Source: Thiobacillus sp. | GTDB lineage: Bacteria; Pseudomonadota; Gammaproteobacteria; Burkholderiales; Thiobacillaceae | Length of the DNA: 64,000 nucleotides | Direction of reading: 5' to 3' | Assembly (NCBI RefSeq): GCF_030696885.1 | Contig: NZ_JAUYRI010000024.1 | Span: 124,001 to 188,000, forward strand | Shown: positions 3,282 to 17,294 of the stretch, one piece after another | Position numbering within the stretch: the first letter of the stretch is position 1 | Layout of the letters: each line of letters begins with the position of its first letter | The notes under the pieces: generated by a model | Seen by the model: the letters and a program-made list of their open reading frames with translations, nothing else | What the model was told of the DNA's origin: nothing | Database searches by the model: none | Position numbers and translations under genes: made by a program

Positions 3282-3471
3282 GGGGGTCCCGGGTGAATAC
3301 GCTGTAACGGCGGGCGTTTGCGTGCACGGCCCCGCCGTCGTTGCGTGTCACTATGGAACGGGGCCGGCCCACTGTCCAAGACGGGTTTCCGATTGCATCG
3401 ATAGAAATCGGCTATGGCTGTCGTCTGTCGGTCATGCTTCAGCCGGGTTTTGCGGACGTAGCAATCGGTCC

Positions 3472-3514: not shown

Positions 3515-3533
3515 ATAACCCGGAGAAACGACC

Positions 3534-4001: not shown

Positions 4002-4004
4002 GCT

Positions 4005-4565: not shown

Positions 4566-4621
4566 CTGCGCTCGATTGGATACTTGAACAGCTGTCCCGG
4601 ACGGGACGCACGGTCTGACTG

Positions 4622-5728
4622 CTAGGCCGCCGGCTTGCCGGTTCTTGGGCCGTTGTGCCGTTTACTGGTGGTGGGGTTCTTGGTGACCAGCGGTATGGCA
4701 TCGGATGCGTCTGCCGCGGGACCATCGAAACCCGCTTCGCTGTCCGATGGGGATTTGCTGCGCAGGCAGGTGTCGGTCAGCGGGCAGGGCCGCAGGCGCT
4801 TGCTGCATTCCAGCTGGCAGCGGAGGGCGGACCATTCCGCCGCCAGCTCCGCAAAGGCCTGACAGGCCGGGCTCTGATACGCGCCCTTGCGACAGATCAG
4901 CGAGATCGTGTGGTGTGGCAGCTCTGGAAGCAACGGGATCGAATGAAAACCGTGCTGCGCGCAGGCAATGGCGTCGGGCAGGATGGTGGCCAGCCGGCCA
5001 AAGCGAACGATTTCCATGATCACGCTGAGTGAGGTGGACTCGATCGCAATGGGCGGCCGGATGCCTTGCTCCAGGCAATACATGTCGATGTGCTGGCGCA
5101 GCGCGTAATCTGGGCTGAACAGCACCATCGGTTCCTGCTCCAGCGCATGCTTGCTCAGCGAGCCGCGCTGCGTGGCCAGCGGGTGGTCCTTGCCGACCGC
5201 GAGGCTGAGCGGTTCGATGAACAGGATGTGGCTGTCGACTTCATCCGAGGGTTCTTCGGCCGTGAGCGTGCTGCTGAAGGCGATGCCGATGTCGACGCGG
5301 TCTTCGGCCAGCGCGTCCTTGATGTCGTTCTGCGGCATTTCCAGCGTGCTCAGTGTGATCCCGGGATAGCGCGCGTTGAACTGCTCCAGCAGCGGGCTGG
5401 CCAGATAGTCGGTGATCGGCGTCATGCCGAGGCGGATCGAGCCGCGGCTGAGGTCCTGCAATTCGTGAATGGCGCGCTTCGCGGTGTCGAGTTCGCCCAG
5501 CGCACGACGGGCGTGGTGCACATACAGCTCACCGGCCGCAGTGAGTCGCACGCTGCGACCGGTGCGGTCGAGCAGCTGCACGTCGAGCAGGTCTTCCAGC
5601 TGCTTGATCTGCTGCGACAGCGTTGGCTGCGAAACATACAAAACCTCTGCTGCACGCGTGAAGCTGTGGTGTTCGGCCACCGCCATCAGGTAGCGGATCG
5701 AGCGCGGAAAAACGATGTTTCTATCCAT
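4622..5728 (-). CDS. CynR-like LysR-type regulator
   Basis: 368 residues from ATG 5728; a TTG six bases upstream is also in frame but less likely. The N-terminal winged helix-turn-helix (residues about 4-62: VAEHHSFTRAAEVLYVSQ, then TLSQQIKQLEDLL) and the co-inducer domain (GSIRLGMTPITDYL, DVGIAFS-like text) follow E. coli CynR, the cyanate-responsive activator, closely along the length. After about residue 295 comes an extra ~70-residue, low-complexity polar tail not present in CynR. Its start region lies inside a 70-bp block that recurs upstream of scnB, and cyanase lies 1 kb away, so it is the likely regulator of the thiocyanate/cyanate genes. It is transcribed divergently from the HupE gene. 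Confidence 0.85.
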   Translation of the reverse strand: MDRNIVFPRSIRYLMAVAEHHSFTRAAEVLYVSQPTLSQQIKQLEDLLDVQLLDRTGRSVRLTAAGELYVHHARRALGELDTAKRAIHELQDLSRGSIRLGMTPITDYLASPLLEQFNARYPGITLSTLEMPQNDIKDALAEDRVDIGIAFSSTLTAEEPSDEVDSHILFIEPLSLAVGKDHPLATQRGSLSKHALEQEPMVLFSPDYALRQHIDMYCLEQGIRPPIAIESTSLSVIMEIVRFGRLATILPDAIACAQHGFHSIPLLPELPHHTISLICRKGAYQSPACQAFAELAAEWSALRCQLECSKRLRPCPLTDTCLRSKSPSDSEAGFDGPAADASDAIPLVTKNPTTSKRHNGPRTGKPAA

Positions 5729-5790
5729 AGCCAACCCCTATAGAACTCATCGGAATTTGATCTTTGAAAACCATCGTCGCATGGTACATA
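5721..5790. promoter_or_regulatory. Conserved regulatory block A (LysR autoregulatory/HupE promoter region)
   Basis: This 70-bp stretch aligns without gaps to 8301-8370, with 53 of 70 bases identical by hand count, including the exact decamer CCAACCCCTA and the runs TATCCATA, GAACT and ATTTG. It starts over the first codons of the LysR gene and continues into its divergent promoter region toward the HupE gene. Conservation outside coding DNA at exactly the two expected target promoters points to a binding site for the CynR-like protein. Confidence 0.65.
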
Positions 5791-5948
5791 GTTCAGCGCA
5801 ACAGCAGCCGTGGCCCGTCGCGCCGTCTTCGCCAGCATGCTCAAGGGTTGACCGGGTCGACCGCGATTAGTGCCGTGCGCTGTACGTAAAGTAGGTTTGT
5901 GTGTGCGATTCATGGTCCGTACGGGGCCGGGGATCGGATGGATGGAAA

Positions 5949-5979
5949 CGTGCCGCATGGGATGTCGAAATGCGGCGTG
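5949..5979 (+). other. Leader hairpin upstream of the HupE gene
   Basis: GCCGCAT (5952-5958) pairs with ATGCGGC (5970-5976), and the RNA stem can be extended by G-U and C-G pairs to 5949/5979. It lies 40 bases before the HupE start. Its role is unknown; it could be a regulatory leader or a chance palindrome. Confidence 0.3.
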
Positions 5980-6019
5980 CGAGTCGGGTAGCAAACTATC
6001 AACAGCGAGGACACTTACC

Positions 6020-6673
6020 ATGAAATTTGCAAAGTACATGCCGGAAATCCATTCTCACGGGGCGCTTGCCGCCACCGCCGGGCTGTTGCTGGTCGCATCA
6101 ACGTCGGCGCTCGCTCACCACCCAATGGGCGGCATGACGCCGCAGACGCTGAGCCAGGGCTTGCTGTCCGGCCTTGGCCACCCGGTCATCGGGCTCGATC
6201 ACCTGGCGTTCCTGGTGGTGGCCATGCTGCTGGCCAGCATGCTCAAGGGCGCGGCGCGCTTTCTGGTGCCGCTGGCCTTCATCGGCGCGACCGTCGCGGG
6301 CACGGTGCTGCATCTGGGCGCGGCGAACATTCCTCTGTCCGAAACCCTGGTGGCGCTGACCGTGGTGATCGGCGGCGTGCTGGCATTGACCCGGCACAAC
6401 GCAGGCGCGCTTGCACTGGGCGCGCTGTTTGCCGTCAGCGGCATCTTCCATGGCTATGCCTACGGTGAAGCCATCGTCGGCGCCGAAGCCACACCGCTGC
6501 TGGCGTATCTGGCCGGCTTCGCGGCGATCCAGTATGCCCTGATCGTCGGCGGCGTGCTGGGCCTGGAAAAGATCGCCCGCTACTCCGAGAAGGCACGCCT
6601 GATTGCCGCGCGTGTCGGCAGCGCGGCGGCGCTGATGACGGGCGGACTGTTCCTCGCGCTGAGCTTCGCCTAA
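6020..6673 (+). CDS. HupE/UreJ family metal permease
   Basis: 217 residues from ATG 6020 (AGGA Shine-Dalgarno at 6007-6010), which gives a normal signal-peptide-like first segment ending ...STSALAHHP. About six hydrophobic helices follow. The HupE/UreJ signature HPVIGLDHLAFLVV is present, as is the second conserved region SGIFHGYAYGE, whose His and Asp/Glu residues are implicated in metal transport. HupE/UreJ proteins import nickel or cobalt for metalloenzymes. No hydrogenase or urease is nearby; instead the cobalt enzyme thiocyanate hydrolase is 2 kb downstream. I infer cobalt supply for ScnC. The family call is strong and the metal is inferred. Confidence 0.8.
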   Translation: MKFAKYMPEIHSHGALAATAGLLLVASTSALAHHPMGGMTPQTLSQGLLSGLGHPVIGLDHLAFLVVAMLLASMLKGAARFLVPLAFIGATVAGTVLHLGAANIPLSETLVALTVVIGGVLALTRHNAGALALGALFAVSGIFHGYAYGEAIVGAEATPLLAYLAGFAAIQYALIVGGVLGLEKIARYSEKARLIAARVGSAAALMTGGLFLALSFA

Positions 6674-6686
6674 GCGCACGCACCTG

Positions 6687-6707
6687 CCGCCGGGGTGTTC
6701 CCGGCGG
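6687..6707 (+). terminator. Hairpin between the HupE gene and cynS
   Basis: CCGCCGGG (6687-6694) and CCCGGCGG (6700-6707) make a perfect 8-bp stem with a 5-nt loop, followed only by GCTTTA. The poor T-run suggests partial termination or mRNA stabilisation between two genes that could be cotranscribed. Confidence 0.45.
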
Positions 6708-6790
6708 GCTTTACTGAAGCCTGATCACGCGGGACACAAGCACGTCCTCGGTCCCGCGCTGCCCGCACGCTGTCCAACGGAGCCACACCC

Positions 6791-7231
6791 ATGAACAAGA
6801 CGGCAATGAAGGACGCGATTCTCGAGGCCAAATTCGCCAAAGGCCTGAAGTGGGCCGAGATCGCCGGGGCCGCGGGCCTGTCCGCCGAATATGTCTGCTC
6901 GGCCTGTCTTGGCATGAACCATCTGGACAAGCCACAGGCCGATGCGGTGGCCGCGGTACTGGATCTGGATTTGGAGGTATCGGCTGCCTTGCAGCGCTTT
7001 CCGCACAAGGCCTGGGATCGGCCGATACCGACCGACCCGGTGATCTACCGCTGGTACGAAATGCTCAACGTCTACGGCGAGACCATCAAGGAAATGATCC
7101 ACGAGAAATTCGGCGACGGCATCATGAGCGCGATCGATTTCACGATGAACATCGACAAGCAAACAGACCCGAAAGGCGACCGTGTGGTGGTCACCATCAG
7201 TGGCAAGTTCCTGCCGTACAAGTCATGGTGA
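6791..7231 (+). CDS. cynS: Cyanase (cyanate hydratase)
   Basis: 146 residues. The enzyme converts cyanate plus bicarbonate to ammonia and two CO2. The N-terminal helical domain (residues 1-75, AEIAGAAGLSAEYVCSACLG) resembles DNA-binding folds, as usual for CynS. The C-terminal catalytic domain contains IYRWYEMLNVYGETIKEMIH and EKFGDGIMSAIDF. The catalytic Arg, Glu and Ser map to Arg87, Glu90 and Ser113 by alignment with E. coli Arg96, Glu99 and Ser122. The protein ends normally (SGKFLPYKSW). It is in the island next to a CynR-like regulator and ahead of thiocyanate hydrolase. It would detoxify cyanate accompanying or derived from thiocyanate and release CO2 and ammonia for assimilation. Confidence 0.96.
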   Translation: MNKTAMKDAILEAKFAKGLKWAEIAGAAGLSAEYVCSACLGMNHLDKPQADAVAAVLDLDLEVSAALQRFPHKAWDRPIPTDPVIYRWYEMLNVYGETIKEMIHEKFGDGIMSAIDFTMNIDKQTDPKGDRVVVTISGKFLPYKSW

Positions 7232-7332
7232 CCCGCATGCATGCGGCGTCTGCATTGCAAGGCTCGAAGCGCGCGATGCGCGCCGGTCGGGCGATGTCGG
7301 ACACCTGCACGCGGACTGACTGCAACAGGTTT

Positions 7333-7402
7333 GGCCTCCTCAATCCGGCATCCTCCTGTGCCGGAGGCCAGTGTGCCGCCTCTTAGTGGGGCGGCTTTTT
7401 TT
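7333..7402 (+). terminator. Strong terminator, possibly an attenuator, between cynS and the methyltransferase
   Basis: GCCGCC (7375-7380) and GGCGGC (7390-7395) form a stem followed by seven T residues (7396-7402), a classic intrinsic terminator. Just upstream, CCGGCA (7345-7350) pairs with TGCCGG (7359-7364), and GGCCTCC (7333-7339) can pair with GGAGGCC (7363-7369). GGAGGC can alternatively pair with the 5' side of the terminator stem. The terminator is clear; attenuation is inference. Confidence 0.75.
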
Positions 7403-7424
7403 ACAGACCGGCGCGAGGTGAAGC

Positions 7425-8246
7425 ATGGCGGCGCGTGACCCCCACCGTTTCGTCAATGAACTGGACGAGACCGCGATTGACGGACTGATTGCCCGGCTCG
7501 AGAGCCGTGCGCAGGACAGCGTCTTTGCCGGACTGCTGGACAAATATGTGGCGCGTCTCGATCTGCCGCCGTCTGCCCGGGTGCTGGAGATTGGCTGCGG
7601 CACCGGCGCTGCGCTGCGCGCGCTCGCGCATCGCGGCGATTTTGCGGGCAAAGCGATCGGCGTGGACCAGTGCCGCGCCTTCATCGAGGCGGCGGCCCGC
7701 TTCGCCGACGCCGAGCGGGTCGGCGACCGGCTCAAGTTCCAGCTGGGTGATGCCCATTGCCTCGATTTCCCCAGCGCGAGCTTCGATGTGGTGATCGCGC
7801 ATACGCTGGTCAGCCATGTGACCGCCCCGCTGGCGGTTCTGGGCGAGATGGCGCGCGTGGTGCGTCCGGGCGGCATGGTGGCCATTTTCGACGGCGACTA
7901 CGCCTCGCTGACCTATGCCTTTCCGGACCACAGCTTCGGCCACAAGATGGATGTGGCGCTGGCGAATTCGACCTTCAACAATCCCCGCATCATGCGCGAC
8001 CTGCCGCGATTGCTGCCCGAGCTCGGCCTGAAACTGGCGGAGGCGTGGGGCGACGCGGTGGTCGAAATCGGAACGGCCAGCTATTTCCGCTCGTTTGCGG
8101 AGACCTACGTGCCGTATGTGAAACGCGCCGGCCTGCTGCCGACCCAGGCGGTCGAGCTCTGGCTCAAGGAGCAGCGGCAGGCGATGAGCAACGGCACCTT
8201 TTTCGCCGCATGCAATTACTACACTTACCTGGCTCGACGCGTATGA
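7425..8246 (+). CDS. Class I SAM-dependent methyltransferase
   Basis: 273 residues. Motif I is VLEIGCGTGAALRAL (about residues 47-61), the acidic motif II region is AIGVDQCRAFIEAA, and motif IV is FDVVIAHTLVSHV, giving a Rossmann-fold methyltransferase with a downstream helical cap. The acceptor cannot be told from sequence; similar proteins are annotated as generic methyltransferases. Its place between cynS and the scn operon, after a terminator, suggests a role connected with thiocyanate or sulfide metabolism. S-methylation of thiocyanate or sulfide is one possibility, by analogy with known thiol/thiocyanate methyltransferases of other organisms. The start has the Shine-Dalgarno GCGAGGTGAAGC. 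Confidence 0.75.
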   Translation: MAARDPHRFVNELDETAIDGLIARLESRAQDSVFAGLLDKYVARLDLPPSARVLEIGCGTGAALRALAHRGDFAGKAIGVDQCRAFIEAAARFADAERVGDRLKFQLGDAHCLDFPSASFDVVIAHTLVSHVTAPLAVLGEMARVVRPGGMVAIFDGDYASLTYAFPDHSFGHKMDVALANSTFNNPRIMRDLPRLLPELGLKLAEAWGDAVVEIGTASYFRSFAETYVPYVKRAGLLPTQAVELWLKEQRQAMSNGTFFAACNYYTYLARRV

Positions 8247-8300
8247 GCCCGGATAACCCCGTTGTCTGGCCGGATAGCGGCTGCAGCATTGCGGCCGGAT

Positions 8301-8370
8301 TTATCCATAACCAACCCCTATTGAACTTATCAGGATTTGGTCTTGGAAATGCGCAATCACAGGGTCCATA
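8301..8370. promoter_or_regulatory. Conserved regulatory block B upstream of scnB
   Basis: This is the partner of 5721-5790, 53/70 identical in the same orientation and without gaps. It ends about 155 bp before the scnB start, in a 278-bp intergenic gap that otherwise shows no gene. It is the likely activation site of the thiocyanate hydrolase operon by the CynR-like regulator. The minus-strand ATG in the block opens only a 27-codon frame unlike the regulator, so the conservation is not due to an intact gene copy. Confidence 0.65.
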
Positions 8371-8524
8371 GTTGTGAACATCAATGGCCTCAGCTGAAGA
8401 ATCGATAGCGTACCGGGCCGTTGCTGGATGGAAGTAGCGCAGTGTAGTGAGTTTCTTCGAACATGCTGATGGACCGTTTGCGATAAGCCGATGTGTTCGT
8501 CATCCACCTAAGGAGTCCGAAACA

Positions 8525-8998
8525 ATGTCATCGTCTACCCGAGAAGAAGTGCTCCGGCATCTCAATACGGTCGGCCAGTTGCAGCCAGCTTTGCACAAGC
8601 AAACCCATGCGCCTGCCCCCACTGAAATCGACCATACGCTCTTCCGTGCCTACACGCGGACGCCCCACGATGTCGGTGGCGAGCCGGATGTGCCCATCGT
8701 GTACCAAGAGAAGGAAGAGGAAGTGTGGGAACTGAATACCTTCGCGACCTGTGAATGCCTCGCCTGGCGCGGCGTGTGGACGGCGGAAGAGCGTCGTCGC
8801 AAGCAGAACGTCGACGTGGGCCAAACGGTATACCTGGGCATGCCCTATTACGGTCGTTGGCTGATGACCGCGGCGCGCATCCTGGTCGACAAGCAGTACT
8901 GCACGCTCACCGAGCTGCACAACAAGATCGTCGAACTGAAGGAGCGCGCGAAGTCTGGACAGGGTCTGGGCGAGTACCTCCCCGCAAAGACCAAGTAA
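8525..8998 (+). CDS. scnB: Thiocyanate hydrolase beta subunit
   Basis: 157 residues, the length known for the T. thioparus beta subunit. The text (EIDHTLFRAYTRTPHDVGGE, ATCECLAWRGVWTAEERRRK, MPYYGRWLMTAARILVDKQY) matches the ScnB family, which corresponds to the N-terminal half of the nitrile hydratase beta subunit. With ScnA and ScnC it forms the heterododecameric cobalt enzyme that hydrolyses thiocyanate to carbonyl sulfide and ammonia. The ATG at 8525 follows the Shine-Dalgarno AAGGAGTCC and removes a 26-codon upstream extension. It is first in the scnB-scnA-scnC-P15K operon, with 19 bp to scnA. Confidence 0.96.
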   Translation: MSSSTREEVLRHLNTVGQLQPALHKQTHAPAPTEIDHTLFRAYTRTPHDVGGEPDVPIVYQEKEEEVWELNTFATCECLAWRGVWTAEERRRKQNVDVGQTVYLGMPYYGRWLMTAARILVDKQYCTLTELHNKIVELKERAKSGQGLGEYLPAKTK

Positions 8999-9017
8999 CC
9001 ATACGAGGAAAAACGCC

Positions 9018-9389
9018 ATGAGCAACAAGCCGCATTACGACAGAACGCATCACGCCAAGATGGCCACCGGCATTGGCGACCCGCAGTGCTTCAAGGGTCA
9101 GGCTGGCAAGGCCCGATTCAAGGAAGGCGACCGTGTCCGCGTCAAGGACCTGCCCGACCTGTTCTACACCCGCACCATGACCTATACCCGCGGCGCGGTG
9201 GGCACGATCGTCAGGCTGGTATACGAAAGCCCGGCGGCGGAAGACGAGGCCTTTGGCAACGAAGACCACTCCGAGTGGTTCTACAGCATCGTGTTCCCAC
9301 AGAACGAACTTTGGCCCGAGTACAGCGATACCTTTTCCAACGATACCGTCGAAACCGAGATTCCTGAACGCTATCTCGAGTCGGCCTGA
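9018..9389 (+). CDS. scnA: Thiocyanate hydrolase alpha subunit
   Basis: 123 residues (family about 126). It starts MSNKPHYDRTHHAKMATGIG and contains ARFKEGDRVRVKDLP, TRTMTYTRGAVGTIVRLVYE and FPQNELWPEYSDTF. This is the SH3-like barrel that corresponds to the C-terminal half of the nitrile hydratase beta subunit. ScnA packs against ScnB and ScnC to shape the active site. The GAGGAAAAACGCC before the ATG is a clear ribosome binding site, and scnC follows after 37 bp. The split of a nitrile hydratase beta chain into ScnA and ScnB is a family hallmark and confirms the assignment. Confidence 0.96.
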   Translation: MSNKPHYDRTHHAKMATGIGDPQCFKGQAGKARFKEGDRVRVKDLPDLFYTRTMTYTRGAVGTIVRLVYESPAAEDEAFGNEDHSEWFYSIVFPQNELWPEYSDTFSNDTVETEIPERYLESA

Positions 9390-9426
9390 GTCGACCCCCG
9401 GAAATTATTTAAGAGAGGAAATGCAG

Positions 9427-10155
9427 ATGTCAGATCATGATCATGACCATGACCACGGGCACAGCCACAAGCCTGCGCCGATGGTCGACGAAGTCAGCGA
9501 TTTCGAAATTCTCGAAATGGCCGTCCGCGAACTGGCCATCGAGAAAGGGCTGTTCTCCCTTGAAGACCACCGCGTCTGGAAGGAATACGTGCACACCCTC
9601 GGCCCGCTGCCCGCAGCACGTCTGGTCGCCAAGGCCTGGCTCGATCCGGAATACAAGAAGCTGTGTATCGAGGATGGCGTCGAGGCCAGCAAGGCCGTCG
9701 GCGTGAACTGGGTGACCAGCCCCCCGACCCAGTTCGGCACCCCCAGCGATTACTGCAACTTGCGCGTGCTGGCGGATACGCCCACGCTGAAGCATGTCGT
9801 GGTGTGCACCCTGTGCTCGTGCTATCCGCGACCGATTCTGGGCCAGTCGCCCGAGTGGTATCGCACCCCGAATTATCGGCGCCGCCTGGTGCGCTGGCCG
9901 CGCCAGGTGCTGGCCGAGTTTGGCCTGCAGCTGCCGCCGGAAGTTGAGGTTCGTGTGGGCGACTCCAACCAGAAGACCCGCTACATCGTGATGCCCCTCC
10001 GTCCGGAAGGTACCGATGGCTGGACCGAGGATCAGTTGACCGAGATCGTGACGCGCGACTGTCTGATTGGCGTTGCGGTGCCGAAACCCGGCATTACCGC
10101 AAATGCGAAGCGACCCGTGATCAAGGCGAATCGGCCGGTCCACCACGACCATTGA
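9427..10155 (+). CDS. scnC: Thiocyanate hydrolase gamma (catalytic, cobalt) subunit
   Basis: 242 residues from ATG 9427, which is 8 nt after AGGA; ATG 9421 is in frame but too close to the ribosome binding site. The cobalt-binding motif VCTLCSC is at residues 126-132. Cys127, Cys130 and Cys132 correspond to Cys128, Cys131 and Cys133 of T. thioparus, where the latter two are oxidised to sulfinic and sulfenic acid. The fold is that of the nitrile hydratase alpha subunit. An N-terminal His/Asp stretch (DHDHDHDHGHSH) could hold cobalt before insertion. This subunit carries the active site for SCN- hydrolysis to COS and NH3. Confidence 0.97.
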   Translation: MSDHDHDHDHGHSHKPAPMVDEVSDFEILEMAVRELAIEKGLFSLEDHRVWKEYVHTLGPLPAARLVAKAWLDPEYKKLCIEDGVEASKAVGVNWVTSPPTQFGTPSDYCNLRVLADTPTLKHVVVCTLCSCYPRPILGQSPEWYRTPNYRRRLVRWPRQVLAEFGLQLPPEVEVRVGDSNQKTRYIVMPLRPEGTDGWTEDQLTEIVTRDCLIGVAVPKPGITANAKRPVIKANRPVHHDH

Positions 10156-10186
10156 GTTCAAGGCTGTCTTTAGCAAGGAGTGAGTC

Positions 10187-10612
10187 ATGGCCATAGTTGA
10201 AAAAAGCGGTCTCGGTGCGGCAGGTGGATGGCAGGGCACCGATCTGACACCGATAGGTGTGCTTGAGGATGTCCGCGGTCGCGGGCGGGTTTGGGAGGAT
10301 CTGGCAGCGCAATACGGCGTCACCAATCCCGATCCGCCCTGGAAGATCGACCTGGAGGCGACCTGCGACATGCTTGCCGCCGATTCGTGTGACAAGCCCT
10401 ACGATCAGGTCGAGCCGGGTTCCTGTGCGCTGCCTTCGCTTGAGCGCAGGGCTGAAGAGGACGATTTGTCTGAAACGCTCTATGAGGATGTGCCCTTCCC
10501 CGAGCGCCAACTGCTGGCACTGGCGCATTCGATGATCAAGCGCGGCCTCATCGACGAAGCGGATCTTGCCCGCCGGATGGAGGAAGTGGGCAAGCGGCTC
10601 AACAGTGCCTGA
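10187..10612 (+). CDS. P15K-type thiocyanate hydrolase activator/cobalt-insertion factor
   Basis: 141 residues encoded 31 bp after scnC, the place of P15K in T. thioparus. The C-terminal half (FPERQLLALAHSMIKRGLIDEADLARRMEEV) resembles nitrile hydratase activator proteins and the nitrile hydratase beta N-terminus. Three cysteines (Cys60, Cys68, Cys80) may contact metal. P15K is known to be needed for cobalt incorporation and activity of recombinant thiocyanate hydrolase. Conservation of position and length makes the call good. It likely binds apo-ScnC and assists metal loading and cysteine oxidation. Confidence 0.85.
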   Translation: MAIVEKSGLGAAGGWQGTDLTPIGVLEDVRGRGRVWEDLAAQYGVTNPDPPWKIDLEATCDMLAADSCDKPYDQVEPGSCALPSLERRAEEDDLSETLYEDVPFPERQLLALAHSMIKRGLIDEADLARRMEEVGKRLNSA

Positions 10613-10619
10613 CCGCAAT

Positions 10620-10637
10620 GCCCGGCACTCGCCGGGC
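10620..10637 (+). terminator. Hairpin after the scn operon
   Basis: GCCCGGC (10620-10626), a 4-nt loop, and GCCGGGC (10631-10637) form a perfect stem 8 nt after the P15K stop. TTCCCG follows instead of a T-run, so it may reduce rather than stop transcription into the ABC transporter genes. Confidence 0.5.
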
Positions 10638-10735
10638 TTCCCGTCATCGATGTTGATGTGAAAACAGAGAAATGCGCACACCCGCCGCACGTCCCTTTCG
10701 ACGCGGCACCCTGGCAACAGTCTAAGGAAGAGTAG

Positions 10736-11524
10736 ATGGCAATCCGCGGAACAGAAATCAAGATAGAGGGCCTGACGCACCGCTATACGCCGCGCAGCCC
10801 GGTGACCTTCAATCGCGTCGACCTGGTCTCGCCGCCCGGTGAGGCGCTGGCCATCATCGGTCGTTCAGGCTGCGGAAAATCGACGCTTCTGCATATTCTG
10901 GCGGGCATCCTGAAGCCCACCGAAGGCCGGGTCCTGCTGGATGGCACGGCGATCGAGGCGCCGGCGCCGCGCTGGGTGATGATGTTTCAGGCGCCGCACC
11001 TGTTTCCCTGGATGACGGTTTCGCAGAATGTCGGGGTGGGCCTGAGCTTCGGGCGCTGGTCCAAGCAGGAAACTGCGGAGCGCGTCACAGAAGCGATCAA
11101 GCTGGTGGAACTCGAGCCCTGGGCCGACAACAACGTGCAGGATCTCTCGGGGGGGCAGCAGCAGCGCGTGGCGCTGGCCCGCTCTCTGGTGATGGAACCC
11201 GAACTGCTGCTGCTCGACGAGCCCTTTTCCGCACTCGATGCCTTCACCCGATCATCGCTGCAAAAGGATGTGCGCTCCATTGCCAAACGCAAGGGTTTCA
11301 ACATTGTGTTTGTGACCCACGACATCGATGAGGCCGTCATCATGGGCGATCGTGCCGTGATCATGGCGGGCTCGCCTGGCAACATCGTCCACGAGCTGGA
11401 CATCGACCTTCCCGACCCACGTGAACGCACCGACGCCGCTGTTCAGGCGTTGCGCACACGTCTGATGACCATGTTCCAGGAAGCGGCTAACTACAAGAAA
11501 CCGGAATCAGCAACCTTGGCTTGA
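10736..11524 (+). CDS. ABC transporter ATP-binding protein (nitrate/sulfonate/taurine type)
   Basis: 262 residues. Walker A GRSGCGKST (42-50), signature LSGGQQQRVALARSL, Walker B LLLLDEPFSALD and switch His in FVTHDIDEA are all present, in the SsuB/TauB/NrtD-like subfamily. It would power the two permeases encoded at 13033-14877 together with the binding protein at 11621. The ATG follows AAGGAAGAG. Its position directly after thiocyanate hydrolase suggests import of thiocyanate or cyanate, but the substrate is inferred from context only; relatives carry nitrate, cyanate, taurine or sulfonates. Confidence 0.92.
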   Translation: MAIRGTEIKIEGLTHRYTPRSPVTFNRVDLVSPPGEALAIIGRSGCGKSTLLHILAGILKPTEGRVLLDGTAIEAPAPRWVMMFQAPHLFPWMTVSQNVGVGLSFGRWSKQETAERVTEAIKLVELEPWADNNVQDLSGGQQQRVALARSLVMEPELLLLDEPFSALDAFTRSSLQKDVRSIAKRKGFNIVFVTHDIDEAVIMGDRAVIMAGSPGNIVHELDIDLPDPRERTDAAVQALRTRLMTMFQEAANYKKPESATLA

Positions 11525-11620
11525 ATCGATCAACGGCATTAAAAAATTTGCTCTTCGTCGCAGCTACTGCAGGGCAAACACCGGTCGGGACAACCGACCT
11601 CCTCACTTAGGAGACCGAAA

Positions 11621-13036
11621 ATGAAGAAATATCTATACGAAGAGCAAGGCCAACAGCGTCCGCTGGTGCACGTAGATGGATGTTCATGTGGGTCGTGTGG
11701 AAAAACAAAATTGATTGATCCGCGCATGCAGATAATGCCGAAGAATCCGGATATTGCCGACGGCATGGTGGATCCGAATCTGGCGATTGATTACGACCCG
11801 CTATTCGGTTCTGTCCTCGGCACCAGTGTCAGCCGCCGCAGCATGCTGAAGGGGCTCGCCGCACTGGGCGGGATGGCCGGCCTCGGCGGCATGATGTCTT
11901 CGTCGGCCTTCGCGCAGGGGAAGAAATTCACCAAGCCGTTCGACCCGGTGTTGAAGATCGGTTATATCCCGATTACCGATGCGGCGACCCTGCTGGTTGC
12001 GCATGAAATGGGATTTTTCAAGAAGGAGGGCATCAAGTCGGAACCGCCGACGCTGATTCGTGGCTGGTCGCCACTGGTCGAAGCCTTCTCGGCCCAGCGC
12101 TTCAACCTCACGCACATGCTGATCCCGGTGCCGATCTACATGCGCTACAACAACAAATTCCCGGTGAAAATCACGGCATGGAACCATACCAACGGTTCCG
12201 GCATCATCGTCAGCAAGAAAGCCGGCATCAAGACCCTGAAGGATTTCGGCGGCAAACAGTTCGCCGTGCCGTACTGGTACTCGATACACAACATCATCGG
12301 GCAGAAACTGCTTCGCGATGCAGGCATCACGCCAGTGATTCGCCCACAGAATGCGAAGCTGGCAGCCAATGAATGTAACTTCCTGGTGTTGAACCCGCCG
12401 GACATGCCGCCCGCGCTGGCGGCAGGCCAGATCGATGCGTACATCGTCGCCGAGCCCTTCAACGCACTCGGCGAACTTCGCGCCGGCGGCGAAATGTTCC
12501 GCTTCACCGGTGATGTCTGGAAAGGCCACCCCTGCTGCGTGGTCGTCATGCATGAAGACGATGCGATGGATCCGGCGCGCGCGAAGTGGGCACAAGGCGT
12601 GCACAACGCGATTGTTGCAGCGCAGCTCCACCTGACCAACAACCGCCAAGCCATGGCCGAGATGCTGTCCAAGGATGGCAAGAAATATCTGCCGTTCCCG
12701 AAGGAAGTGGTGGAGCGCGCAATGATGGCGTACTCGGTTCCCGATTACACCAATCCGCCGGCAATCCAGCATCCGGAATGGGGTCAGTCGCGGATCAACT
12801 TCCAGGGCTGGCCATTCCCGAGCGCAACCCGCCAGGTTGTGACCGAGATGAAACAGACCCTGGTCGGCGGCGAGCTGGCTTTCCTCAACGATCTGACGCC
12901 CGAGTTCGTCGAGAAGGATCTCGTCAACTACACCTATATCAAGAACGCACTGAACAAGAATCCGAAGTGGAAGCTGGACAAGAGCGTCCCGCAAACGGGT
13001 GATCCCTTCGTGCGTACCGAGGTGATCGAGTTATGA
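11621..13036 (+). CDS. Tat-type ABC substrate-binding protein with a cysteine-rich N-terminal extension
   Basis: 471 residues. The binding domain (from about residue 105: LKIGYIPITDAATLLVAHEM) belongs to the NMT1/SsuA/NrtA-like family. The export signal is of twin-arginine type, SRRSMLKG at 71-78, with a hydrophobic stretch and an AFAQ cleavage site near 98. Unusually, about 70 residues precede it, including Cys21-x-Cys23-x2-Cys26 and acidic text (VDPNLAIDYDPLFG). Such an extension would be cleaved with the signal. The ATG has an excellent AGGAGACCGAAA ribosome site and codon use is normal, so the extension looks real. It overlaps the first permease by ATGA. Likely ligands are thiocyanate or cyanate (inference). 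Confidence 0.88.
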   Translation: MKKYLYEEQGQQRPLVHVDGCSCGSCGKTKLIDPRMQIMPKNPDIADGMVDPNLAIDYDPLFGSVLGTSVSRRSMLKGLAALGGMAGLGGMMSSSAFAQGKKFTKPFDPVLKIGYIPITDAATLLVAHEMGFFKKEGIKSEPPTLIRGWSPLVEAFSAQRFNLTHMLIPVPIYMRYNNKFPVKITAWNHTNGSGIIVSKKAGIKTLKDFGGKQFAVPYWYSIHNIIGQKLLRDAGITPVIRPQNAKLAANECNFLVLNPPDMPPALAAGQIDAYIVAEPFNALGELRAGGEMFRFTGDVWKGHPCCVVVMHEDDAMDPARAKWAQGVHNAIVAAQLHLTNNRQAMAEMLSKDGKKYLPFPKEVVERAMMAYSVPDYTNPPAIQHPEWGQSRINFQGWPFPSATRQVVTEMKQTLVGGELAFLNDLTPEFVEKDLVNYTYIKNALNKNPKWKLDKSVPQTGDPFVRTEVIEL

Positions 13037-13845
13037 GCAGTGCAACAACGCCCGCCGCAGGTGGCGGGTTTTATCGTCTCGCTGAACGTTTTGGCTGGGC
13101 AGTGGCCGGCATTGGCCTGGTTGCCGGCGTGTGGTTCCTCGCAGGCCTCTGGCTTGCGGCCAACCCGACGACCAAGACCTTTACCGCGTTCGGCCTGATT
13201 CCCACGCTCCAGGCATTTCCGGAGCTGTGGGCGGCGGGCAAGATCCAGGCAGCGGCTGCCGCCAGCGGATATCGCCTCGGCATGGGGTTGTTGATCGCCA
13301 TCGCAATCGGGGCGCCCATCGGCGTCCTGATGGGGCGAATCAAGTGGTTCAACAACTACACCAATTCGCCTTTCCAGTTCCTTCGGATGATCAGTCCGCT
13401 TGCCTGGATGCCGCTTGCCGTGCTGGTGTTTTCGACATGGAACGGGTCGATCATTTTCCTGATCGCGATTGCTTCGGTGTGGCCGGTGATGTTTGCAACC
13501 GCGGCCGGTCTGGCCAAGGTGGATCCGGCGTGGTTCAAGGTGGCTCGAAACCTTGGCGCCAAACCGTGGCACATGCTGACCAAGGTGATCATGCCGGCCA
13601 TCATGTTCGATGTGCTGTCCGGAATCCGGCTCGCACTGGGTGTTGCCTGGATTGTGCTTGTGCCCGCGGAATACCTGGGCGTGACGTCAGGTCTGGGCTA
13701 TGCCATTGAAGATGCGCGCGAGACGCTGTCGTACAACCACCTGACGGCGCTGGTGGTCACGATCGGCATCATCGGTTACTTCCTCGACGGCATTCTGGTT
13801 GCGCTGATCAAGCGTGCCAGCTGGCATCGTGGCGGCGTCAGCTGA
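13033..13845 (+). CDS. ABC transporter permease 1 (BPD_transp_1)
   Basis: 270 residues with about six membrane helices and the binding-protein-dependent transport EAA loop (FATAAGLAKVDPAWFKVARN then LGAKPWHMLTKVIMPAIM). It starts at an ATGA overlap with the binding protein gene, so translation is coupled. It is a close paralogue of the permease at 14035-14877. The pair could form a heterodimeric channel, unlike the homodimers common in SsuC/TauC systems. Substrate inferred as thiocyanate or cyanate from context. Confidence 0.9.
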   Translation: MSSATTPAAGGGFYRLAERFGWAVAGIGLVAGVWFLAGLWLAANPTTKTFTAFGLIPTLQAFPELWAAGKIQAAAAASGYRLGMGLLIAIAIGAPIGVLMGRIKWFNNYTNSPFQFLRMISPLAWMPLAVLVFSTWNGSIIFLIAIASVWPVMFATAAGLAKVDPAWFKVARNLGAKPWHMLTKVIMPAIMFDVLSGIRLALGVAWIVLVPAEYLGVTSGLGYAIEDARETLSYNHLTALVVTIGIIGYFLDGILVALIKRASWHRGGVS

Positions 13846-14034
13846 GTCTGTGAACGCGTGCGCAAAGATGATGCCATGTTGAGCAGATGCATGCGCTGCG
13901 GCTTGGCGATCAGTCATCGCACGGTTCCTGCGGCGTTTCACTCAGGCAGTCGCCCGCCGCGGGTCGCCCATATAGAAATGAATGAACGCCCAAACGGGGG
14001 TTCGCCATACCCGGTAACCGGGGGGAGTCAATAG

Positions 14035-14877
14035 ATGAATGGCAAAGTTGTGACTGCCGATAATGGGGTGATCAGTGCCGGGATCAGTGGCAACTGTTTC
14101 ACCCGCAACATGAAGAATCTGTCGGACAAGAGTCTGCACTTTTTTGTAGGCCTGACCGTGCTGCTCGGTTTGTGGTGGCTGGCCATCTACCTCGTCACCC
14201 TCGATCCGGCCAAGTCGACGTTTGCTGAATTTTCGCCCTTGTCGGCCTTTGGGGCGCTTCCGGATCTGTGGGGTGACGGCACCATCCCGGATGCGCTGGA
14301 GTCGACCGGATATCGCCTGGGGACGGGCTTGTTTCTAGCGATCCTGATCGGTGTGCCGATCGGCATCCTGATGGGACAGGTCAGATGGTTCCAGCGGCTG
14401 ACCAATGTGCCGTTCCAGTTTATGCGAATGATCAGCCCGCTCTCCTGGGAGCCGATCGCGGTCGTCGTGTTTGCCGGATGGAATGAGGCCATTGTCTTCC
14501 TGATTGCCATTGCCGCGGTGTGGCCGATTGCCTTTGCGACCGCATCGGGCCTCGCCAAGGTTGATCCGGCCTGGTTCAAGGTTGCGCGCAACCTGGGCGC
14601 CAAGCCGTGGCACATGGTGTCGAGAATCATCCTGCCCGCGATCATGTTCGATGTGATCACCGGTATCCGGCTTGCGCTGGGCGTGGCGTGGATTGTGGTG
14701 ATTCCGGCTGAATTCCTTGGTGTGACATCAGGCTTCGGCTACGCCATTCAGGATGCCCGTGAGAGCCTGGAGTACGCCAACCTGATGGCGATGATCCTGA
14801 TGATCGGCGTGGTCGGATTTGTGCTCGACACCCTCTGCGTAATGCTGATCAAGCGCTTCAGTTGGCACCGTGGCTGA
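14035..14877 (+). CDS. ABC transporter permease 2 (paralogue of permease 1)
   Basis: 280 residues. From about residue 120 it is nearly collinear with permease 1 (FATASGLAKVDPAWFKVARN, LGAKPWHMVSRIILPAIMFD), while the first 25 residues differ. The start at 14035 has a strong purine-rich ribosome site (GGGGGGAG). The 189-bp gap before it contains no gene I can support. A tandem duplication followed by divergence is the simplest origin, and a heterodimeric membrane domain the simplest role. Confidence 0.9.
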   Translation: MNGKVVTADNGVISAGISGNCFTRNMKNLSDKSLHFFVGLTVLLGLWWLAIYLVTLDPAKSTFAEFSPLSAFGALPDLWGDGTIPDALESTGYRLGTGLFLAILIGVPIGILMGQVRWFQRLTNVPFQFMRMISPLSWEPIAVVVFAGWNEAIVFLIAIAAVWPIAFATASGLAKVDPAWFKVARNLGAKPWHMVSRIILPAIMFDVITGIRLALGVAWIVVIPAEFLGVTSGFGYAIQDARESLEYANLMAMILMIGVVGFVLDTLCVMLIKRFSWHRG

Positions 14878-14933
14878 TTAAAGGCAGTCCGCCGGACGTA
14901 ACGAACTGCATGACTTAACGAGGTAGAACCAGC

Positions 14934-15320
14934 ATGGCGAAAATCAGTATTGTGTGCACCACGGGAACACGCGAGAAGCTTCAGATGGCTTCAATGATCG
15001 CATCGGTTGCGGCAGCCACGGGCGACGATGTGTCGGTGTTTCTGTCCATGAATGCCATGCCTTATTTCGTGAAGGGCTACAGCGGTGAAGCGCCCGTCGA
15101 AGGCGAAATCGGAACGCTGATGTCGCAGAAGGGGGTGCCGCCTTTCAAGCAGCTTTTCCAGCAGGCCGTCGAACTGGGTGACGCCAAGTTGCTGCCCTGC
15201 TCGATGGTGCTGGATATTTTGAAGCTTGATAAGGATGACCTCGATCCGGAGCTGGGACCGCCCACCGGATTGACGCGCTTTCTGAGCGATGCCGAAGGCG
15301 GGCAAATCCTTACGTTCTGA
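14934..15320 (+). CDS. DsrE-like sulfur-relay protein
   Basis: 128 residues with the DsrE/DsrF-like alpha/beta fold: an N-terminal strand ([20 protein letters not shown]), a [13 protein letters not shown] segment and a late conserved cysteine in [11 protein letters not shown] (Cys89; Cys8 is the other). In DsrE-type proteins the late cysteine carries persulfide sulfur. The gene is followed 41 bp later by a TusA-like gene, a pairing known from sulfur oxidisers, where DsrE and TusA pass sulfane sulfur toward cytoplasmic oxidation. Here it would accept sulfur released from thiocyanate. A ribosome site GAGGTAGAACC precedes the ATG. Confidence 0.82.
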
Positions 15321-15361
15321 GCGGCAGCACATCGAACATCTATTCAGTTGGAGAAACAGTG

Positions 15362-15592
15362 ATGAGTGATACCAAAATTGTAGACGCACGCGACACGTTC
15401 TGTCCCGGCCCGCTGATGGAGCTCATTACGCACATGAAGCGGAGCAATGTGGGTGACACGCTGGAACTGCTGTCCACCGATGAAGGCTCCGGCGCCGACG
15501 TGCCGGAGTGGGTCAACAAGGTCGGGCACGAAATTCTCAGCAACGAGAAAGTCGACGGGGTTTGGCACATCAAGATTCGCAAGGTGAAATAG
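15362..15592 (+). CDS. TusA-like sulfur carrier
   Basis: 76 residues from ATG 15362, 8 nt after GGAG; the GTG one codon earlier is less likely. It has the TusA signature CPGPLMELITHMKR with the persulfide-carrying Cys14 in CPxPL. TusA proteins bind sulfane sulfur on this cysteine and hand it to partners. Neighbouring DsrE and SQR-like genes support a role in dissimilatory sulfur transfer rather than tRNA thiolation. The length and motif are standard. Confidence 0.9.
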   Translation: MSDTKIVDARDTFCPGPLMELITHMKRSNVGDTLELLSTDEGSGADVPEWVNKVGHEILSNEKVDGVWHIKIRKVK

Positions 15593-15672
15593 CGCGCGAC
15601 AGACTGTGTCGAGACCATCGTTTAGCCAGCGGCCAGGGCGCCACGGGAGAGAATTGTGAACAGGAGAATGCA

Positions 15673-16806
15673 ATGAGAATCTTAGTTGTCGGCGGTGGCA
15701 CGGGGGGGACGATTGTGGCCAACAATCTGGCGCGGCGACTGTCTGCCGAGATTCGTGCGCGCAAGGTCCGGATCACGCTGCTCTCGGCATCGGACAAGCA
15801 TATGTACCAGCCCGGGCTGCTGTATGTTGCGTTCGGCCAGATGACGCCCGACCAGCTTTATCGTGACCAGGCGAGCCTGCTCGAGGGAAGCATCAATTTT
15901 CACGTGGACCCGGTCAAGAAATTTGAACTCGACCAAAACAAGGTCGTCACGGAAAGCGGCAAGGTTCATGATTACGACATCCTGGTGATTGCCACCGGTT
16001 CACGCATCGTTCCCGAGGATATTCCAGGCATGGTCAAGGGGGCGGATACCTTCTATACGGAAGCGTCCGCGGTCAAGATGTTCAAGCGCCTGCGCGAAAT
16101 CCAGGAAGGCACGGTTGCCGTTGTCGTCGGGGTGCCGCACAAGTGTCCGATCGCGCCGGTCGAGCTCGTTTTTGGCTTGCACGATTACTTCAAGGCGCGC
16201 GGCATCCGCGACAAGATCAAGATCAAGTACCACTATCCGATCGGCCGCATCCATACCATCAAGGAAGTCGCCACCTGGGCCAAGCCCGAGTTCGACCGCA
16301 TGGGCATCGAGTACGAGACCCTGTTCAACGTCAGCGAAGTGGATGCGGAAAACAAGGTGGTGCGGAGCGAAGAGGGCACCGAGACCCATTATGAAATGCT
16401 GATCGCCATCCCCCCGCATCGCGGCATGGAGGTGATCGAGCGAAACAATATGGGAGAGGGGGGCTGGATTCCGACCGATCGTTTCAAGCTCACCATGACC
16501 GGCCATGACAACGTGTATGTGCTGGGCGACACGACCAACCTGCCCGTCAGCAAGACCGGATCGGCGGCGCATTTCGAGGCCGAGGTGGTTTCCGAAAACA
16601 TTGCCTCGATCATCAAGATTGGAACGCCGGTGCGCGACTACGACGGCAAGGTGTACTGCTTCATTGAGACAGGCCACGACAGTGCGACCTACGCAATGTT
16701 CAACTATCAGAACCCGCCAGACCTGAAGCCGCCCTCGAAACCGATGCACTGGTTCAAGATGGCGTACAACCAGATGTACTGGACCAGCGTTCGCGGATTG
16801 CTCTAA
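15673..16806 (+). CDS. Sulfide:quinone reductase-like FAD oxidoreductase
   Basis: 377 residues from ATG 15673, with GGAG ahead. The N-terminal FAD-binding motif is VVGGGTGG (5-12), the second nucleotide-binding stretch is near VVVGVPHKCPIAP, and the FAD ribityl/flavin motif is VYVLGDTTNLP. Cys158 (HKCPIAP) and Cys329 (KVYCF) match two of the redox cysteines of sulfide:quinone reductases; a third is not seen. The C-terminus (WFKMAYNQMYWTSVRGLL) is amphipathic, as in the membrane-associated SQR group. It would oxidise sulfide to polysulfide or persulfide and reduce quinone. A flavocytochrome c-type or other SQR-like activity is possible. Confidence 0.85.
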   Translation: MRILVVGGGTGGTIVANNLARRLSAEIRARKVRITLLSASDKHMYQPGLLYVAFGQMTPDQLYRDQASLLEGSINFHVDPVKKFELDQNKVVTESGKVHDYDILVIATGSRIVPEDIPGMVKGADTFYTEASAVKMFKRLREIQEGTVAVVVGVPHKCPIAPVELVFGLHDYFKARGIRDKIKIKYHYPIGRIHTIKEVATWAKPEFDRMGIEYETLFNVSEVDAENKVVRSEEGTETHYEMLIAIPPHRGMEVIERNNMGEGGWIPTDRFKLTMTGHDNVYVLGDTTNLPVSKTGSAAHFEAEVVSENIASIIKIGTPVRDYDGKVYCFIETGHDSATYAMFNYQNPPDLKPPSKPMHWFKMAYNQMYWTSVRGLL

Positions 16807-16816
16807 GGAAGCCAAA

Positions 16817-17239
16817 ATGACGACACCCACTGAAACGCCCCTCAACCCGATGGCCACCGAAGATCTGCAGCGACTCGTCGAATTCGCGCAGCTCGTGACG
16901 GCCGGTCGGGACGCGATGTCGGACGAAATTGTCACCCGACTGGCCGGCGCGATGAGCGAAGGCCTGACGCTACTCGACCGCCTGACCCGCAACGAGGGGC
17001 TGATGCACCTGCTGAAGGTGCTCGATCGCCAGGAAACGCAGTACTTGCTGGTTGCCCTGTCCGATGCGATCCACGCGGCGAGCCAGGAAATCCCGGCTGC
17101 CCCGCCGGCAACCGGGGGCCTGGCCTGCATGATGCGGGTGGCCCGTGATCCGGGTACGCAGGAAGGCTTGCGCTTGCTGTCGGTGTTCGGCAAGCACCTG
17201 AGTCACAGCATGCGCGAGCAGCACCGACACGGCGGCTAG
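16817..17239 (+). CDS. DUF1641 family protein
   Basis: 140 residues, largely helical and without cysteines near the active-site type; the text ATRLAGAMSEGLTLLDRLT-like (here VTRLAGAMSEGLTLLDRLTR) and LMHLLKVLDR fits DUF1641. These small proteins are often encoded next to SQR-like flavoproteins and DsrE/TusA genes, but their function is unknown. It starts 10 bp after the SQR-like gene and ends just before a strong terminator, so it is the last gene of the island. A role as an accessory or membrane-docking partner of the flavoprotein is inference. Confidence 0.7.
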   Translation: MTTPTETPLNPMATEDLQRLVEFAQLVTAGRDAMSDEIVTRLAGAMSEGLTLLDRLTRNEGLMHLLKVLDRQETQYLLVALSDAIHAASQEIPAAPPATGGLACMMRVARDPGTQEGLRLLSVFGKHLSHSMREQHRHGG

Positions 17240-17261
17240 CGCGTCATTGCAGTCCGAAAAA

Positions 17262-17294
17262 AACGGGGGCGGCATCAGCCGCCCCCGTTTTTTT
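17262..17294. terminator. Bidirectional intrinsic terminator closing the thiocyanate island
   Basis: A perfect 12-bp stem (AACGGGGGCGGC, 17262-17273; complementary arm 17278-17289) with an ATCA loop is flanked by an A-tract before and a T-tract after. It lies between the DUF1641 gene and the convergent PBP gene and should stop both. Confidence 0.95.

Follow-up and report, generated by a model that had tools for sequence, protein, structure and literature searches.

Thiobacillus sp. contig NZ_JAUYRI010000024.1 carries an island for the catabolism of thiocyanate within the 64-kb stretch analysed here, which we call the window; it sits on a 280-kb contig of a 3.0-Mb genome (G000) that is 99.8% complete. 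A minus-strand cynR is divergent from a plus-strand series of hupE, cynS, a methyltransferase gene, scnB, scnA, scnC and a P15K gene, followed by four genes of an ATP-binding cassette (ABC) importer and by dsrE, tusA, a type III sulfide:quinone oxidoreductase gene (sqr(III)) and a DUF1641-like gene. The block (4622-17294) is real, and all genes listed in the original prediction were recovered when each named family was tested by family and profile scans and by matches to structure chains. Its reading as one thiocyanate system, with uptake, probable cobalt supply, hydrolysis of the carbonyl sulfide (COS) type, cyanase and sulfur handling, is borne out by a shared operator and by modules that stand together in most proteobacterial loci. 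What it left out were three operators, a split into two units and a gene upstream, glcF2, which encodes an orphan paralog of GlcF. To judge from sequence, we are dealing with a known catabolic island to which a previously unrecognised regulon and an iron-sulfur partner appear to belong.

Operators, transcription units and conservation of the island

The stretch adjoining the cynR start is conserved in 29 loci (L numbers; genomes carry G numbers) and comprises an ATAG-N7-CTAT dyad, ATCGGAATT, CTTGGA and then a CATAGT-like box. Of the 29 aligned sites next to cynR, 24 went into a position weight matrix; L005, L116, L122 and the window itself were left out by choice and L118 did not match the anchor pattern, while L006, which lacks a usable upstream stretch, is absent from the alignment. 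The predicted operator is 48 bp long and occurs in three copies in the window (Table 1), where 50 locally shuffled 64-kb windows reach a maximum of 3.5 bits. With at most 3 mismatches allowed, a degenerate operator pattern picks out the window's three sites and no others in the whole 3.0-Mb genome, and a reversed control gives none. In loci held out from the matrix (L005, L007, L008, L010, L116, L119 and L122) an operator of 45-65 bits precedes scnB, and a second site above 22 bits lies before scnB in 18 of the 19 loci with genes between cynR and scnB, L115 being the exception. Scores are at most 0.4 bits in loci L013-L052, and no site exceeds 20 bits in L158-L169, which comprise sulfur modules standing alone and COS/CS2-hydrolase loci. 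The gap between cynR and cynT of E. coli reaches 24.8 bits. A caveat for operator 1 is that the start codon of cynR makes up its bases 2-4; the same bases recur before scnB and glcF2, where no such start lies. The promoter-like sequence inside its conserved block belongs to a kind of site that is no commoner in the region than in shuffles (3 vs 3.1).

We infer that CynR, whose score exceeds the curated equivalog cut-off, binds the three putative operators. This would tie the island to glcF2 through one regulator, a connection that looks new. The few papers that literature searches turned up have no title or abstract opening that links thiocyanate or thiocyanate hydrolase to LysR or CynR control, to GlcF or to glycolate oxidase. 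As in E. coli cynR-cynTSX, a CynR-family LysR gene is divergent from the unit it would control; the E. coli operon includes the carbonic anhydrase gene cynT, whereas the island has no carbonic anhydrase and adds thiocyanate hydrolase, an importer, sulfur genes and three operator copies.

The claim that the genes form one block is right as to genes and bounds, but a second strong intrinsic terminator lies inside it, between cynS and the methyltransferase gene (7375-7395; entered as 7375..7402 in Table 1), and is kept in 14 of the 19 loci in which both genes are adjacent. Given this terminator and an operator before each part, the island is best read as two units, each with its own putative operator; the methyltransferase gene, flanked by the terminator and operator 2, falls on the boundary of the two. 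The strong terminator proposed as the outer bound is a hairpin that can be read from the sequence and that the terminator scan does not list, the T run probably being consumed in its A/T pairs. Scans for Rfam families and tRNAs gave no matches in the window. Beyond the hairpin, a long minus-strand open reading frame (ORF; 17363-20578) has a partial match to penicillin-binding protein 1B (residues 795-919) and is overlapped on the opposite strand by a 1335-aa ORF.

Table 1. Positions of the genes and of the predicted regulatory features in the window
Feature	Position	Strand	Basis
Outer-membrane beta-barrel protein (Phenol_MetA_deg family)	1190..2008	-	PF13557 E 4.5e-17; directly downstream of glcF2
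glcF2, orphan GlcF paralog	1974..3281	-	NCBIfam GlcF equivalog, 555 vs 333 bits; two 4Fe-4S and two CCG motifs
Putative operator 3 (CynR type)	3370..3417	-	89 bp upstream of glcF2; 32.9 bits
cynR-like LysR regulator	4622..5728	-	NCBIfam PRK11242 CynR, 375.9 bits vs cut-off 277; start set by homology
Putative operator 1	5725..5772	+	Between cynR and hupE; ATAG-N7-CTAT dyad, ATCGGAATT and CTT(T/G)GA; 71.0 bits
Promoter-like TTGAAA-17-CATAGT	5764..5792	+	Inside conserved block of operator 1
hupE/ureJ-type permease, probably cobalt supply for thiocyanate hydrolase	6020..6673	+	PF04955 E 1.1e-30
cynS, cyanase	6791..7231	+	Family model, 203.8 bits vs cut-off 150
Intrinsic terminator	7375..7402	+	Terminator scan; between cynS and methyltransferase gene
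Class I S-adenosylmethionine methyltransferase, role not assigned	7425..8246	+	PF08241 E 5.6e-22
Putative operator 2	8305..8352	+	About 170 bp upstream of scnB start; 52.6 bits
scnB, thiocyanate hydrolase beta	8525..8998	+	2dd4_B E 2.7e-91
scnA, thiocyanate hydrolase alpha	9018..9389	+	2dd4_A E 1.9e-70
scnC, thiocyanate hydrolase gamma	9427..10155	+	2dd4_C E 3.5e-161; CTLCSC motif
P15K-like maturation factor	10187..10612	+	Position, conservation, weak NHase_beta_N match
ABC importer ATPase	10736..11524	+	PF00005 (ABC_tran) E 7.9e-36
NitT/TauT-type binding protein	11621..13036	+	PF13379 (NMT1_2) E 2.9e-36; twin-arginine (TAT) signal; Cys-rich leader
ABC permease 1	13033..13845	+	PF00528 (BPD_transp_1)
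ABC permease 2	14035..14877	+	PF00528 (BPD_transp_1)
DsrE-family sulfur carrier	14934..15320	+	PF13686 E 1.3e-12
TusA sulfur carrier	15362..15592	+	PF01206 E 3.9e-20
Type III SQR-like flavoprotein	15673..16806	+	Pyr_redox_2; NF049943 318 bits; human SQOR E 3.7e-37
DUF1641-like helical protein	16817..17239	+	Weak ortholog matches; all-helical low-confidence model
Terminal hairpin with flanking A and T tracts	17257..17294	+	Read from sequence

ScnC was sought in named genomes, in 149 relatives and in 369 genomes of the class. Loci were counted over 31 distinct proteobacterial scn loci with enough downstream sequence; L007, L010 and L119 were excluded because of contig ends, and duplicates were counted once (L002 equals L100, L004 equals L119, and L124 and L001 are the window's own DNA). 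The sulfur module follows scn in 30 of these loci, the binding protein is found in 30, cynR is nearby in 30 (exception, L006) and cynS is present in 26 (absent from L009, L115 and L121-L123). The mostly actinobacterial loci L013-L041 have scnB, scnA, scnC and, except in L018 and L037, a same-strand P15K-like gene; their available stretches hold no importer, regulator or sulfur module, barring weak matches (26-43%) to the ATPase, cynR and the methyltransferase. It appears that the scn core has evolved in part separately from the proteobacterial island, whose own modules mostly travel together.

GlcF2, a candidate third member of the regulon

GlcF2 resembles the GlcF of GlcDEF in its score with the GlcF model and in its iron-sulfur motifs, but it differs in having no adjoining GlcD or GlcE, in falling into a separate clade, in its operator and in occurring only with scn among 149 relatives. 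Neither glcD nor glcE was found beside 28 GlcF-like genes of scn loci and genomes, on the available stretches, whereas the canonical second GlcF copies examined lie beside glcE and, given a long enough stretch, glcD; for this reason glcF2 is filed as an orphan paralog rather than as GlcF. The barrel gene downstream has homologs that follow glcF2 in several relatives, and the two genes probably form one unit.

Matches at the level of GlcF2 (E <= 1e-170) occur in 20 of the 149 related genomes, and these are identical to the 20 scn carriers; the next GlcF match, at 3e-146, belongs to a glcDEF locus. The scn carriers are 18 genomes with scnC at E < 1e-140 plus G054 and G077, in which scnC is cut by a contig end, while another 12 genomes with ScnC matches 40-49% identical, which is nitrile hydratase level, were not counted. 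All of the 18, searched individually, hold GlcF2 (59-100% identical to that of the window) together with a second GlcF (51-56% identical), and G054 and G077 also hold both. Fisher's test, which ignores shared descent, gives 3e-25 for the co-occurrence. An operator of at least 12 bits precedes, within 450 bp, 23 of 26 GlcF-like genes of scn genomes, as against 0 of 12 canonical glcDEF loci, among genes with enough upstream sequence (L112 and L117 were excluded as too short). Co-inheritance of glcF2 with scn is, like the gene identities, the shared operator and the terminator, directly evident at the sequence level.

In a tree of GlcF proteins, from which two duplicate rows were dropped, 24 scn-linked proteins including that of Halochromatium group together (94/89, or 100/100 without L118), and the proteins of L005, L119, L120 and L122 form a second, distant lineage. 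Two changes are needed in the best tree and in 200 bootstrap trees. Branches with strong support require only one, however, and some long branches are flagged; a second recruitment of a CCG-type iron-sulfur protein to the neighbourhood of cynR and scn is therefore likely rather than proven.

It is possible, though doubtful, that GlcF2 serves as a reserve GlcF which pairs with GlcD and GlcE in cells growing on thiocyanate, either in place of a subunit damaged by cyanate, sulfide or COS or to boost the oxidation of glycolate. GlcF2 does retain both 4Fe-4S and both CCG motifs of GlcF, and all 20 scn genomes hold a second GlcF whose examined copies lie beside glcE (and glcD). However, its strict link to scn and its CynR-type operator speak against such a role, as do 14 class-specific positions and an insertion that separates the ferredoxin motifs in the window, L003 and L115 and is missing from L012 and L118. 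Moreover, the presence of a distant GlcF-like lineage in the same slot of four loci fits a recruited iron-sulfur carrier better than a GlcDE subunit. Still less probable is that glcF2 is a passenger kept by old synteny with no part in thiocyanate metabolism. This would explain why it occupies the same place beyond cynR in most Thiobacillus-like loci, yet the gene occurs on either side of the island (L111 and L112 have it at the other end, and G122 has it further downstream), lies on a separate contig in G051, is found in no scn-less genome among the 149 and mostly has its own operator. A more appealing scenario is that GlcF2 serves the island itself, where its most likely job is electron transfer between the SQR-III flavoprotein and quinone.

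Several observations weigh against a regulon of this composition. The 20 of 20 pattern of glcF2 and scn lies within one order and is uncorrected for shared descent. The GlcF-like genes of L011, L118 and L205 (the unlinked glcF2 of G051) have no operator, that of L218 has a weak and distant one (12.4 bits, 447 bp), and in L012, L119 and L120 the operator is on the strand opposite to the GlcF-like gene. Ten scn stretches (L006-L010, L107, L109, L116, L121 and L123) showed no GlcF-like gene, and L007, L009 and L010 among them are cut by contig ends; of the genomes with negative stretches, G013, G051 and G122 have a GlcF-like gene elsewhere, and in the remaining ones it was not sought further. Nowhere in L118 or L006 does an operator score above 22 bits, the sulfur module is absent in L008, and the ABC importer is absent in L116.

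Other outer-membrane protein genes were seen in two scn loci. In L117 a gene of the alginate-export type (15466-16662, minus strand) stands behind an operator site, and a gene of L008 (15053-16681) is like it by eye and has no Pfam family match.

Hydrolase, cyanase and importer of a known island

The linkage of transporter and sulfur genes, in which the original prediction saw novelty, is not new, because Berben et al. (2017) describe the same genes in T. thioparus DSM 505: scnABC, a hypothetical gene, four NitT/TauT ABC genes, DsrE, TusA, SQR and another hypothetical gene (PMC5328954, Fig. 3), preceded by genes for cyanase, a methylase and a single cobalt transporter, with 16 locus tags in all. 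The gene order is that of our island, the hypothetical gene after scnABC standing at the P15K position. The two differ in that cyanase lies directly before scn in DSM 505, whereas the methyltransferase gene intervenes in the window, which also has HupE in the cobalt slot and, unlike DSM 505, no evident extra hypothetical gene between ABC genes 3 and 4. The passages on the DSM 505 cluster name no regulator, operator, internal terminator or GlcF (PMC5328954). According to the same passages, Thioalkalivibrio thiocyanodenitrificans has a similar layout with a different cobalt system and without cyanase, and Rahman et al. (2017) refer to Kantor 2015 as having already described a conserved scn operon (PMC5458468).

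ScnB, ScnA and ScnC match chains B, A and C of 2dd4, the subunits of the T. thioparus crystal structure, and are three separate subunits homologous to nitrile hydratase beta-N, beta-C and alpha. The scnB start was corrected to the ATG at 8525, not 8447, and scnC starts at 9427. All three cysteines of the CTLCSC motif of ScnC, which we take to be the metal-binding (cobalt-site) motif, are invariant in 30 of 30 orthologs. From its close similarity to the characterised enzyme, ScnABC would hydrolyse thiocyanate to COS and ammonia. The P15K label rests on position and conservation (Cys60 is present in 31 of 31 orthologs), the NHase_beta_N match being sub-threshold (E 0.007). No thiocyanate dehydrogenase was found among the scanned island genes, and no search of the genome was aimed at it. 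A second scnB-scnA-like pair, 48% and 55-57% identical and without a second scnC match, occurs in L109 (reverse complement 4386-7585), where a 44-bit CynR-type operator precedes it, and in L118 (reverse complement 3515-6639); downstream of the pair come a small ORF with cysteine and an ORF resembling a thiamine-diphosphate enzyme, both named by eye.

The metal permease of the original prediction is indeed a permease gene, but its identity is corrected to HupE/UreJ, and its metal would be cobalt most likely. HupE alternates in the cobalt slot with a CbiM-like permease, noted in seven loci and confirmed by Pfam in one (L101), which supports this role. The methyltransferase has 83 of 273 residues invariant in 22 orthologs. 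CynS scores above its cut-off and has R87, E90 and S113, presumably at the positions of the catalytic residues of E. coli cyanase. That the island covers both a cyanate and a COS route does not follow, since the initiating enzyme is the COS-forming hydrolase and cyanase, according to passages in PMC6504805 and PMC5328954, is not a marker of the cyanate pathway.

The substrate of the importer is presumably thiocyanate. We think it unlikely that it takes up cyanate or nitrate instead, with CynR answering cyanate, even if the PDB relatives of its binding protein include NrtA and CmpA-type proteins and, as stated in PMC6627978, the CynABD cyanate importers are ABC-type and E. coli CynR regulates the cyanase cluster. 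Against this, the importer is kept with scn in 5 loci without cynS in the available stretch: L009 (cut upstream), L115, L121, L122 and L123. In L116, the scn locus without ABC genes, a formate/nitrite-family channel gene (4472-5419, minus strand) stands behind a CynR-type operator, and this would suit either anion. The binding protein has a leader of about 70 residues (11621-11850) with a CSCGSC motif ahead of the TAT signal; the motif is conserved in many Thiobacillus-like relatives and absent from several other loci.

Sulfur handling, the fate of COS and the proposed regulon

DsrE Cys89 and TusA Cys14 are each invariant in 32 of 32 orthologs. Two cysteines of the SQR-like protein align with cysteines of human SQOR that we take to be its catalytic pair, and Cys158 and Cys329 are present in 32 of 32 orthologs. 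The protein misses the cut-off of the NCBIfam SQR_III selenoprotein model (318 vs 525 bits), and since this model, NF049943, represents a selenoprotein subtype, only an SQR-III-like identity is claimed. The DUF1641 label of the last protein is plausible from its orthologs, 6 of 24 island orthologs matching PF07849 at E <= 1 (best 8.7e-4), but the window protein itself is below the gathering score and has no Pfam family match. Stand-alone relatives reach at most 20.4 bits against a cut-off of 21, and the predicted structure is all-helical with low confidence (pLDDT 62, pTM 0.29).

The notion that the sulfur module is specific to scn was rejected because stand-alone copies exist. These dsrE-tusA-sqr(III)-DUF1641-like operons have the same genes in the same order in loci without scn, and their SQR proteins are 64-69% identical; they differ in a longer last protein (262 aa in L158 and 322 aa in L165, versions read in detail) and, unlike the island, have no operator above 20 bits. 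In L163 (9538-17510) a CS2-hydrolase-like gene lies about 5 kb from such an operon, with MerC-like, OmpW and sigma-54 activator genes between.

The proposal that the island leads from import to oxidised sulfur breaks at one step: there is no COS hydrolase in the island and none of known type in the genome. The COS hydrolase known from T. thioparus is a member of the beta-carbonic anhydrase class, and neither the island nor G000 holds an ortholog of this type (3vqj). A Pro_CA domain was lacking at E 1e-5 in 13 of the 20 scn genomes, some of them incomplete and the window genome among them (which was also negative at E 0.001), while 7 of 20 have some beta-carbonic anhydrase; alpha-carbonic anhydrase was found in none of 18 scn genomes searched and not in G000. 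Of the 20 scn genomes, 3 have a close ortholog of the COS hydrolase (G044, G048 and G084, where the G084 copy is incomplete and interrupted by a stop), and orthologs are present also in four relatives without scn (G033, G037, G046 and G131), so the enzyme was rejected as a companion of scn, 4 of 7 orthologs being in genomes without it. A hidden COS hydrolase in G000 did not emerge from the Pro_CA, ortholog and alpha-carbonic anhydrase searches, which did not extend to gamma-carbonic anhydrase and CsoSCA. A weak match in G036 (E 0.0013) was judged not to be a COS hydrolase, and G013 holds a relative of CS2 hydrolase. In a metatranscriptome of a thiocyanate-fed system, the passages concerned report scn reads and no COS hydrolase reads (PMC6172326).

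The step from COS to sulfide thus appears not to be encoded in the island, and COS may be lost, hydrolysed by an enzyme class that was not searched, or handled by the sulfur module. There is about an even chance that an ordinary undetected enzyme, a gamma-carbonic anhydrase or a novel COS hydrolase, does the work and that the pathway is complete and unremarkable. The gap in the searches, which did not cover gamma-class proteins or carboxysomal CsoSCA, leaves room for such an enzyme, as does the beta-carbonic anhydrase of 7 scn genomes; the lack of alpha-carbonic anhydrase (0 of 18) and of Pro_CA (13 of 20) argues the other way, and T. thioparus reportedly emits COS on thiocyanate, so that COS may simply be released. 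A bolder idea, which we hold to be a long shot, is that GlcF2 and the DsrE, TusA, SQR-III and DUF1641-like proteins form a dedicated quinone-reducing, sulfur-oxidising complex that captures the sulfur of COS directly on a carrier thiol without a free hydrolase. If true, it would explain why 17 of the 20 thiocyanate-hydrolase genomes have no known COS hydrolase ortholog, and why a CCG-type iron-sulfur protein was recruited, probably twice, near cynR and scn.

Taken as a whole, we regard as probable a CynR-controlled thiocyanate regulon of three promoters that includes GlcF2 as the electron partner of SQR-III. In this model a CynR-family LysR protein would switch on three promoters sharing one operator, in response to an inducer that could be thiocyanate. 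Unit 1 (hupE-cynS) would supply the metal, most likely cobalt, and remove cyanate. Unit 2 (scnBAC-P15K-ABC-dsrE-tusA-sqr-DUF1641-like) would import thiocyanate and hydrolyse it at a Co(III)-cysteine site to COS and ammonia; something outside the components named in the model would convert COS to sulfide, and the sulfur, once sulfide, would pass through type III SQR, DsrE and TusA. Unit 3 (glcF2 and the outer-membrane barrel gene) would provide a GlcF-like protein with two [4Fe-4S] clusters and CCG motifs that carries electrons between SQR-III and quinone.

Gold mining and coking discharge thiocyanate as a major toxic effluent, and among atmospheric sulfur gases COS is an important one. The step that consumes COS is usually drawn as solved, but most of the related genomes searched hold no known enzyme for it, and whether COS is released or consumed becomes directly testable. 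The proposed regulon would add an iron-sulfur protein that goes unmentioned in the passages compared here on scn clusters, and the predicted operator may allow the thiocyanate regulon to be traced by sequence in Beta- and Gammaproteobacteria. We regard this as a real and useful new layer on a known island.

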